Below are positions 27,068 to 30,943 of a stretch of 64,000 nt of DNA, in pieces (position 1 is the first letter of the stretch; every line of letters begins with the position of its first letter). A program made the position numbers and the translations under genes. Origin of the DNA: an uncultured Desulfuromonadales bacterium (lineage in GTDB: Bacteria; Desulfobacterota; Desulfuromonadia; Geobacterales; Pseudopelobacteraceae); the NCBI GenBank assembly GCA_903868145.1, contig CAIPTY010000085.1:1-64000 (forward strand), written 5' to 3'. A model generated the notes under the pieces. The model did not search any database, had not been told where the DNA came from, and was given only the letters and a program-made list of their open reading frames with translations.

Positions 27068-27373
27068 ATGAAAACAAAAAGTTTGCTCGTGCTGCTTGTT
27101 GCTTTTGTCCTGGGTTTTTCCGCCTTGTCATTTGCCGAAGGATACGGCATCCATCAGAGGGTTATACATGCGCATGACCGTATTGAAAGAGGTGTGAGAT
27201 CCGGGGCGCTGACACGGGAAGAAGCCCATCGACTGAGGAGTGAACTGAACAGCGTGCGGGATGATGAAGCGCGGATGAGATCAGACGGGAGGCTCACTCC
27301 CCGCGAGAGACAACGGCTTGAAGCGGAACTGGATCGTCTGGAAAGGCACATCTCCCGTGCCAAGCGTAATTGA
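27068..27373 (+). CDS. Small exported helical protein
   Basis: A 101-residue protein with a clear signal peptide (MKTKSLLVLLVAFVLGFSALSFA, cleavage probably before EGYG). The mature part is highly charged and helical, rich in Arg and Glu (RIERGVRSGALTREEAHRLRSEL ... RERQRLEAELDRLERHI), with two related helical hairpins that resemble the repeated helices of small periplasmic stress proteins. No family is assigned. A GAAGGAG site precedes the ATG, and an intrinsic terminator follows at 27457, so it is probably monocistronic. Confidence 0.8.
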   Translation: MKTKSLLVLLVAFVLGFSALSFAEGYGIHQRVIHAHDRIERGVRSGALTREEAHRLRSELNSVRDDEARMRSDGRLTPRERQRLEAELDRLERHISRAKRN

Positions 27374-27456: not shown

Positions 27457-27482
27457 AAGGCACCCTTGGCGGGGTGCCTTTT
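27457..27482 (+). terminator. Intrinsic terminator after the small exported protein
   Basis: AAGGCACCC (27457-27465) pairs perfectly with GGGTGCCTT (27472-27480) across a 6-base loop, followed by a short T-run. It lies between the convergent gene at 27068 and the selenoprotein candidate at 27524. Confidence 0.8.
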
Positions 27483-27523: not shown

Positions 27524-27772
27524 TCACTCAACCTCATCCAGCATGGCAAAGGCAAAGTTCTTGGCACGCCCCGACGGCGCGATGATGCCGTAGGCAATCG
27601 CCTCGCGCAGTTCCGCTTTCGTTGCCCCTGCCTCCTTCGCGACCGCGAAGTGCTTCTTCAGTCAGGTGGGGCAGCCCACGGCAATGGCGCACCCGACCCG
27701 GATCAGCTCGCGGGTTCTGGTGTCCAGCACCTCTTCATACTCATAGTCCAGAATCTGCTTGCGAATTTTCAT
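27524..27772 (-). CDS. Probable selenoprotein: AhpD/carboxymuconolactone decarboxylase-like with CxxU motif
   Basis: The minus strand reads 82 codons from ATG 27772 to TGA 27524, interrupted only by an in-frame TGA at 27664-27662 (codon 37). The context is AIAVGCPT-TGA-LKKHFAVAKEAG: the UGA replaces the second cysteine of the family's CxxC redox motif, giving C34-P-T-U37. The downstream half is intact (ATKAELREAIAYGIIAPSG ... FAFAMLDEVE). An RNA hairpin with a GGUC loop lies just 3' of the UGA (separate entry), as expected for a bacterial SECIS. ATG directly follows the glnE stop (TAAATG) and shares its GAGGGAAG ribosome site, so translation is coupled. Related Sec-containing AhpD-like proteins have been described in selenoproteome surveys. 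A nonsense-mutated pseudogene is the alternative. Confidence 0.8.
27635..27650 (-). promoter_or_regulatory. Putative SECIS hairpin
   Basis: On the transcript, CUUCGC pairs with GCGAAG (six perfect base pairs) around a GGUC loop. The loop begins 18 bases after the UGA at 27662 and starts with G, both within the known limits for bacterial selenocysteine insertion elements that bind SelB. Confidence 0.7.
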
Positions 27773-30700
27773 TTATCTTCCCTCTCCGAATATCCGGTCA
27801 TAACAGTCCCTGATTTTGCCGGTCGTCGCCTCATAATCACAGATCAGAACAGCGCCGGGATTTCTCAGTTTTGCATCATACCCGAGCCTCAGGGCAAGTT
27901 TGTTCATGTAGCTCGTCGGCCCGGTTAGATCATTGACCGAATAATCGTGGATGATTCGCAGGCGGTTTTCCAGTTTACGCAGGAATTTGTACCCGCTCAA
28001 CATGGCATCGGCGCATGATTCGGGCACAAGCCCCAGCGTTCCTATCTCCTTGAGTGCAATAATGGTGCTGGTGGTGCGCAGCTCCGGGTGGCGGCAGCCA
28101 TTCCTGAGCTGGAGGTACTGCACGGCAAACTCCACATCCACCATGCCGCCCCGCCCGGATTTTATGTTGTAGCTGTCGGCGGTTTCCCTGGCCAGCTCAT
28201 CTTCCATACGCTTCCGCAGGCGTCGAATCTCACGACGGCCATCATCGTCGATGGTAGACCCGTAGACCGCCTGCCTGATAACATCTCCCAGCTGGCTGGC
28301 CAGCAGATCGTTCCCAAGCACCACCCGCGCCTTGGTCAGAGCCTGTCGTTCCCAGATCTGAGCCTCCTTGCGGTGATAATCAAGAAAGGACTGTAGCGAC
28401 GTCACAAGCGGCCCTGCATTCCCGGAGGGGCGCAGTCGGGTATCGATCTTGTAGACGTAACCCTCACGGGTCTGCATGGTCAGGATCGAGATTATCTTCT
28501 GTGCCAGTTTGGCAAAATATTCATGGTTTGATATCTGTTTTTCACCATCCGTGTTTCCCTGATGGTCATAGACGAAGATTATGTCCAGATCGGAGTGGTA
28601 ATTGAGATCGCCCCCCCCCATTTTACCCATGCCGATAACCGCCAGGCTGGCCTCACTGCTTCTGCCATCCAGCGTGAACTGTGGCTTTCCAAAGCGGGAC
28701 AGATCCTGGACTGCCAGCCGGTAGGCGGCTTCGAGACATGCCTCACTCACCAGGGTCAACTGGCTGGTTACCTCACTCTGTCCCAGTTGTCCGTGAATAT
28801 CGTTCATGCCTATGCGCAGAAACTCCTCATTGCGATAGCGTCGCAGAACATCCAACTGGTCTTCAAAGTGATCACACTGATCCAGCAGAGTGGTCAGATC
28901 CGCAGCCATGTCATCCTTCTGCTTCACCGTGGAGACATGACTGCGGGCCACCATGCTGTCAAGCAGTTCCGGGTGTCCGATCAGGATTTTTGAGAGAAAC
29001 TCCGACATGCCGAAGAGCGATACCAGCAGTTTCATGGTCTCGCCGTTTTCTGCCAGCAGGGCATAATAGGATGAGCGCGTTCCGATGACTGACAGAAAGC
29101 GCTCCAGATTGGTGAGCGCCATGTCCGGGTCGGGCGAGGCGAAAATTTCCTGAAGCAGCAGGGGAGAAATTTTTTCCAGCAATCTCCGGCTGCGTTCGGT
29201 CAGCTTGCCCTTCTCCGGCCCGTTCCGAAGCGACTGCAGGTTCTGGTAGGCTCGCTCCACGTCCTCGAATCGCCGCTCGGCCAGCATGTCCTTGACCAGG
29301 TCAGCATCTGCCTTGTGATCGAGAAAAAAGAGTACCGTGGGGTCTGTCGCCTCACGCAGGGTGGTATCGCGGGTATGAAAAAGGTTCCCATAAATTGCGG
29401 AGACATTGCCCCGGTGCCCTTCCAGCACCTCCCGGAAGCGTTCCAGCCCGTTGAGACGGAGAAAACCGCTGCGGCGAGCCAGAGCCAGAAGCTCTTCGTC
29501 CCGGATTGGCAGATTGTGCGTCTGCCGCTCCTGCACCACCTGAATCCGATGTTCCACCGTACGCAGAAACCGGTAGGCATCACTGAGTTTGAGATGGTCT
29601 TCCTCCGTAATCAGGTGAGCCGCGAGCAGTGCTGTCAGGGCTTTGAGAGAGTTGCGCTCCCGCAGTTTCGGATTTTTACCGGCATATACGAGCTGTAGCG
29701 CCTGAATGAAAAACTCGATTTCACGGATACCGCCGCGTCCCAGTTTAAGATTGGTCTCACCCTCCATGGAACGGGTCAGGGAGGCATCAATTTTCTGTTT
29801 CATGTTTTTCATATCCTCGATCAGGTTGTAATCGAGATATTTGCGGTAGACAAACGGCTGCAGCATCTTCAGAAACTGTTCACCAAGGTCGAGGGAACCG
29901 GCAACCGGTCGCGCCTTGAGCATGGCCGTGCGCTCCCAGGATTGCCCCCACGACTCATAGTAGATCTCGGCCGAGTGGACCGAGATGGCCATGTCGCCGG
30001 ATTTACCTTCCGGTCTCAGGCCCACATCAACCCGGAATACGAAACCGTCCTCAGTGACCTGAGACAGCGCCTTGCTGATCATTTCTCCCAGTTTGTTGAA
30101 AAATGCGTGCAGGGAGATGACACCTTTCAGGCCGTCCCCACCGTCGGGGATGCCACTGGTTTCACCGTTGTCCGATTCATAAAAATATATGATGTCAATA
30201 TCCGAAGAGAAGTTGAGCTCGTTCCCGCCAAACTTTCCCATACCGATAACGGTCATCTCGGCTTCGCGCGGAACCCCTGCCGACAGAACCATCGGTGCGC
30301 CGTACTCACGGACAAGATTCGCCCGACAAACCTCATACGCAACCTGCAAGGAAGCTGCGGCCAGATTTGAAAGTTCACCGGTGACCTCTTCGAGTGGTGA
30401 AAGACCGTTCAGATCCCGAGCCCCGATCCGCAGTATTTCCTCCCGCTTAAAACAACGCAGCTCCCGGTGCAGGGCGAAGATATCCATAGGTGTCGTTACG
30501 CGGGACCGGAGTTCGGCCAGCATGTCATCGGCAGAACGGGAGATTTCGATGGCATTTTCCAGAAAAATCCGCCGGAATGATGCAGGTGTTTTAAAGATCA
30601 GGTTTACCAGAAATGAAGACGCCCCGCAGACGAGCAGAAACTGGGACAGTCGTTTTTTACGGTGGATGATTTCGGTCAGATCCGCAGGCGGAATAACGAC

Positions 30701-30943
30701 CGCCAGTCGTTCGAAGGTATTGAGCGCCATATCCGGCGCGGGCGTCAGCAGCGAAGAGATAACGATGCGGTGGAGGGTGTCAATCGGAAAAAGCGGCAGG
30801 ATGAGAATTATATTGTCGGCGGATCGGGCTCCGTAGAGATAGCCGCGGGATGCGAGGTAATCCGCCAGATGACGGCTGCGCTCTGCGGTGTCTTCCAGAG
30901 CCATGATACGGATAAAATCCTGGGCGAATCGTTCTACATGCAT
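27773..30943 (-). CDS. glnE: Glutamine synthetase adenylyltransferase/deadenylase
   Basis: A 1056-residue bifunctional enzyme that adds or removes AMP on glutamine synthetase in response to nitrogen status through PII. It contains two nucleotidyltransferase domains with the GMGKxGGxxLNxxSDxDIIFxY motif: the deadenylase copy near residue 235 (GMGKFGGNELNFSSDIDII) and the adenylyltransferase copy near 770 (GMGKMGGGDLNYHSDLDII). Each is followed by its helical GlnE/GlnD domain (for example KLGRGGIREIEFFIQ and KSGRGGMVDVEFAVQ). It is somewhat longer than the enterobacterial protein. The stop is adjacent to the ATG of the selenoprotein candidate (TAAATG), which is unusual company for glnE. Confidence 0.95.
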   Translation of the reverse strand: MHVERFAQDFIRIMALEDTAERSRHLADYLASRGYLYGARSADNIILILPLFPIDTLHRIVISSLLTPAPDMALNTFERLAVVIPPADLTEIIHRKKRLSQFLLVCGASSFLVNLIFKTPASFRRIFLENAIEISRSADDMLAELRSRVTTPMDIFALHRELRCFKREEILRIGARDLNGLSPLEEVTGELSNLAAASLQVAYEVCRANLVREYGAPMVLSAGVPREAEMTVIGMGKFGGNELNFSSDIDIIYFYESDNGETSGIPDGGDGLKGVISLHAFFNKLGEMISKALSQVTEDGFVFRVDVGLRPEGKSGDMAISVHSAEIYYESWGQSWERTAMLKARPVAGSLDLGEQFLKMLQPFVYRKYLDYNLIEDMKNMKQKIDASLTRSMEGETNLKLGRGGIREIEFFIQALQLVYAGKNPKLRERNSLKALTALLAAHLITEEDHLKLSDAYRFLRTVEHRIQVVQERQTHNLPIRDEELLALARRSGFLRLNGLERFREVLEGHRGNVSAIYGNLFHTRDTTLREATDPTVLFFLDHKADADLVKDMLAERRFEDVERAYQNLQSLRNGPEKGKLTERSRRLLEKISPLLLQEIFASPDPDMALTNLERFLSVIGTRSSYYALLAENGETMKLLVSLFGMSEFLSKILIGHPELLDSMVARSHVSTVKQKDDMAADLTTLLDQCDHFEDQLDVLRRYRNEEFLRIGMNDIHGQLGQSEVTSQLTLVSEACLEAAYRLAVQDLSRFGKPQFTLDGRSSEASLAVIGMGKMGGGDLNYHSDLDIIFVYDHQGNTDGEKQISNHEYFAKLAQKIISILTMQTREGYVYKIDTRLRPSGNAGPLVTSLQSFLDYHRKEAQIWERQALTKARVVLGNDLLASQLGDVIRQAVYGSTIDDDGRREIRRLRKRMEDELARETADSYNIKSGRGGMVDVEFAVQYLQLRNGCRHPELRTTSTIIALKEIGTLGLVPESCADAMLSGYKFLRKLENRLRIIHDYSVNDLTGPTSYMNKLALRLGYDAKLRNPGAVLICDYEATTGKIRDCYDRIFGEGR

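Follow-up and report, generated by a model that had tools for sequence, protein, structure and literature searches.

A probable GSU3128-family selenoprotein gene with a conserved in-frame UGA and SECIS-like hairpin in an uncultured Desulfuromonadales bacterium

This work indicates that an 82-codon gene in the window, the 64,000-nt stretch of DNA from an uncultured Desulfuromonadales bacterium that was analysed here, is almost certainly a functional selenoprotein gene of the GSU3128 (NF041047) family, as judged from sequence comparisons. The analysis established the gene and its UGA, the machinery genes of the host genome, the conservation of the UGA together with its hairpin, and a fold prediction. 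We propose that SelB, carrying Sec-tRNA-Sec, would recognize a 16-nt hairpin downstream of UGA37, and that selenocysteine would thereby be inserted at codon 37 in this organism. In the resulting 82-aa, mostly helical protein, C34-x-x-U37 would form the redox centre, and E22 and H41 are spaced as in the proton relay of AhpD. Among anaerobic Geobacter-like bacteria, it most likely serves as a small peroxidase or thiol/selenol oxidoreductase; this redox activity and its substrate are inferred. The features discussed are collected in Table 1.

Table 1. Positions of the gene, its recoding signals and neighbouring or related features (window coordinates unless a contig is named)
Feature	Position	Strand	Basis or remark
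GSU3128-family AhpD/CMD-like selenoprotein gene (predicted), 82 codons, Sec = codon 37	27524..27772	-	ORF, Pfam, NCBIfam, 62 loci
In-frame UGA, putatively decoded as selenocysteine (C34-P-T-U37)	27662..27664	-	TGA in 74/74 members over cut-off
Predicted bSECIS hairpin, 6-bp stem CUUCGC/GCGAAG, loop GGUC 27644-27641	27635..27650	-	near-invariant stem, frozen synonymous sites
glnE	27773..30943	-	directly upstream, TAAATG junction; not a conserved partner
9-bp inverted repeat (AAGGCACCC...GGGTGCCTT), candidate terminator after the gene	27457..27480	-	read by eye
selD with its own in-frame TGA	G000:C80:62089-63015 (L017)		near N-terminus, AAKAAGUAAKLGP

Inspection of the sequence placed the start ATG at 27772-27770 of the minus strand, directly abutting the glnE stop TAA (27775-27773), so that the TAAATG junction of the preliminary description was recovered. 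The frame runs through 36 codons, meets TGA at 27664-27662, where the single interruption had been located correctly to the base, and continues for 45 codons to the stop TGA at 27526-27524. The second half, said to be intact, is indeed free of stops, and one family model matches both sides of the UGA. Translation gives GCPT-U-LKKHF at this site, and the expectation that the UGA replaces the second Cys of the AhpD/CMD CxxC motif agrees with the C34-P-T-U37 read here and with CxxU in 62/62 named loci of relatives.

The 82-aa read-through product matched the NCBIfam model NF041047, 'GSU3128 family (seleno)protein', with 153.4 bits (E=1.2e-45; curated cut-off 110 bits) over residues 1-82 and profile positions 1-83 of 84, as for a full-length member carrying the CxxU motif of that family, and Pfam CMD PF02627 with 54.7 bits (E=1e-14; cut-off 23). 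The gene is therefore a member of an already catalogued, conserved selenoprotein family described since 2006, when it was reported under the name 'distant AhpD homolog' in the selenoprotein sets of Geobacter sulfurreducens and G. uraniireducens (PMC1794560); a 2026 review lists it as 'Distant AhpD homolog, NF041047, CxxU' (PMC13188914). The suggestion that standard callers miss such a gene holds for a generic gene caller, which would end the protein after 36 residues, but current annotation need not miss it, given the NCBIfam equivalog model dedicated to this selenoprotein family.

The main evidence comes from conservation of the UGA. A member of NF041047 above the cut-off occurred in 67 of 97 genomes, the host included, each with exactly one TGA; in a sample of the phylum, members were found in 16/395 genomes, again with one TGA each, and 7 of these, genomes of the class, were additional. 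Altogether, the 74 members over the cut-off all contain exactly one in-frame TGA, and no Cys form above the cut-off was found among them in the sampled genomes, which answers the earlier question of whether Cys or TGA occupies this site in homologues. Scanning 84,980 species genomes yielded 62 usable named loci, titled Geobacter-like or other Desulfuromonadales/Deltaproteobacteria, with one titled Proteobacteria; these are 65-94% identical and carry U within a CPxU or CRTU motif (locus L114 was masked at the UGA site). All relatives examined keep the UGA, and almost all of them also keep the hairpin. Because one model matches both halves of the gene, and the UGA and hairpin are conserved, their combination is, on the sequences compared, more than chance.

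The hairpin consists of CTTCGC (27650-27645), GGTC (27644-27641) and GCGAAG (27640-27635), with the stem beginning 12 nt and the loop 18 nt after the UGA, precisely the spacing claimed for it. Published rules for bacterial SECIS elements specify a loop of 3-9 nt located 16-37 nt from the UGA, an upper stem of 4-16 bp, a G within the first two loop positions and an MFE <= -7.5 (PMC13188914), and the window hairpin, with its 4-nt loop GGUC at +18, its 6-bp stem and its predicted energy of -8.7 kcal/mol, conforms to all of them. The stability of the fold is ordinary, the energy of the isolated hairpin being unexceptional against shuffled sequence (z = -1.08 to 0.51), and an Rfam scan returned no family over the gathering score at this position. 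Therefore, the case for the hairpin rests on conservation and not on fold energy.

The stem hardly varies among relatives, so base-pair covariation cannot be scored, and the freezing of synonymous sites was used instead. The 18-nt stretch CACTTCGCGGTCGCGAAG is nearly unchanged at all synonymous positions in 64 distinct genes, a count that leaves out L088, L095 and L112 as divergent or incomplete. Mean entropy is 0.06 bit at codons F42, A43, A45 and K46 but 1.28 bit over 38 other conserved codons, all of which reach at least 0.5 bit (Mann-Whitney p=6e-4), and the K40 codon beside the hairpin stretch alternates freely between AAG and AAA. Since frozen synonymous positions point to selection on RNA, we conclude from the codon patterns that selection acts on the hairpin RNA within the coding region. 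One group of relatives (L031, L037, L043, L046, L050, L088 and L095) mostly retains the stem but has CCUG or CUUG as its loop, lacking the expected G in the first two positions. Two of this group, L088 and L095, may use an alternative, shifted 6-bp hairpin, CGCCUU-GGCA-AAGGCG, which they can form 3 nt further on. As a separate observation, the antisense of the hairpin (27635-27650, plus strand) scores as terminator-like, one such site being within chance expectation.

The host genome, assembled in 103 contigs and 97% complete, encodes the decoding machinery, whose absence would have spoken against a selenoprotein: selA (602 bits), selB (362 bits) and selD (371 bits) were found, and selC, the tRNA-Sec with anticodon UCA, scored 71.5 bits, over the Rfam cut-off. 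As selD carries an in-frame TGA of its own, the host genome very probably uses Sec in other proteins too. Scanning the entire window, with read-through, for further CxxU/UxxC frames gave 8 mechanical candidates, none convincing by eye.

Two other readings of the UGA have to be considered. In a single genome, one in-frame stop in a normal AhpD-like gene would look identical to a pseudogene, in which a Cys or other codon had mutated to a stop and the second half was decaying. However, the same TGA recurs in 74/74 members over the cut-off, the downstream half is conserved at the identities given above over dozens of species and its synonymous sites 3′ of the UGA are frozen; conservation refutes this reading, whose probability is vanishingly small. 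Alternatively, the UGA could be read through as tryptophan, be otherwise recoded, or terminate translation to leave a 36-aa main product. This is extremely improbable, given that TGA is a normal stop here, ending this very gene, that the UGA occupies the place of the catalytic Cys in CxxC, that a bSECIS hairpin follows it at the right distance, and that selABCD are all present. The pseudogene and alternative-code readings were both rejected on the conservation of the UGA.

Relatives lacking the machinery bear on how strictly the family depends on Sec. Among eight relatives at least 90% complete and without selB over the cut-off, selA and tRNA-Sec were undetected in 8/8, and six of the eight also lack a GSU3128-family gene. 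The other two (G038, locus L119; G052, locus L120), drafts that are 96% and 99% complete, each retain the UGA gene intact and its hairpin unchanged, and no selA, selB or tRNA-Sec was found in either draft. G052 has a selD without TGA and G038 has no selD match, but the selD state does not decide whether Sec was lost in them, because Sec-decoding members of their genus also have a TGA-less selD. A missing contig plausibly explains the undetected Sec genes, since both genomes are drafts and, as G016 and G044 show, selA and selB can be located near each other. Across 97 relatives, the presence of selB and that of the gene are associated (62/22/5/8, Fisher p=0.015), only modestly, as the gene has been lost from many relatives that decode Sec. 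It is doubtful, though conceivable, that the family is Sec-only, with the gene usually absent rather than Cys-converted where selA, selB and tRNA-Sec are undetectable, and with G038 and G052 as possible fresh relics or users of an unrecognized decoding system.

The preliminary description had also coupled the gene to glnE, and the selenoprotein could be imagined as a dedicated partner of the GlnE adenylyltransferase in nitrogen regulation. The abutting TAA and ATG in the window and the position of glnE directly upstream in 18/62 related loci (tblastn) accord with this, whereas in the other 44 loci glnE was not found upstream and the neighbours vary by clade, some contigs being short upstream. 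Such coupling is therefore not general, and a dedicated partnership is very unlikely. Most of the 18 glnE-linked loci share downstream convergent genes resembling those of the window, and the glnE link is, by these gene orders, best described as clade-specific synteny and not a conserved functional link. Downstream in the window, the inverted repeat of Table 1 sits between the selenoprotein gene and a convergent small plus-strand gene (27068-27373) and is followed by TTTT on the plus strand; the terminator scan did not list it.

At the protein level, an alignment of 32 members shows no variation at E22, C34, U37 or H41. An AlphaFold2 model of the 82-aa protein is mostly helical (pLDDT 94.9), and its best PDB matches by Foldseek belong to the CMD/AhpD family, namely 5dik (TMq 0.73, rmsd 1.7), 2af7 and 1p8c, with probability 1.00 and E only 0.007 or weaker; phmmer matched the protein to 3bey (E=3e-9) and 7y4r (RclX; E=7.5e-8). 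The AhpD/CMD fold first assigned from the sequence alone is thus borne out by the Pfam CMD match, the predicted fold and the spacing of the Glu/Cys/Sec/His relay.

Our understanding of selenium biology is unchanged by this gene. It is a further well-supported member of a known selenoprotein family, it illustrates cleanly how a SECIS within a coding region is under selection at the nucleic-acid level, and for annotation it exemplifies a protein that generic gene calling would cut short. Compared with NF041047/GSU3128, it is alike in whole-length match, CxxU motif and lineage, and no difference beyond species-level sequence variation was found. The AhpD-like (TIGR01926/COG2128) and CMD-like CxxU selenoproteins of marine metagenomes are likewise CMD-superfamily CxxU proteins with a bSECIS, but these families stand apart in the published table (PMC13188914), and the window protein matches NF041047. 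In AhpD of Mycobacterium tuberculosis, the proton relay comprises E118, C130, C133 and H137 (PMC3141380). Although the window protein is an 82-aa single domain with Sec for the second Cys, its identity to the AhpD-family structure 1gu9 is low (23%), and the relay His132 is not conserved in the GSU3128 family, where the position is mostly Thr or Asp, it has in common with AhpD/PF02627 the CMD domain, the helical fold and the C-x-x-C/U motif, and the spacing of Glu118/Cys130/Cys133/His137 is matched by E22/C34/U37/H41.
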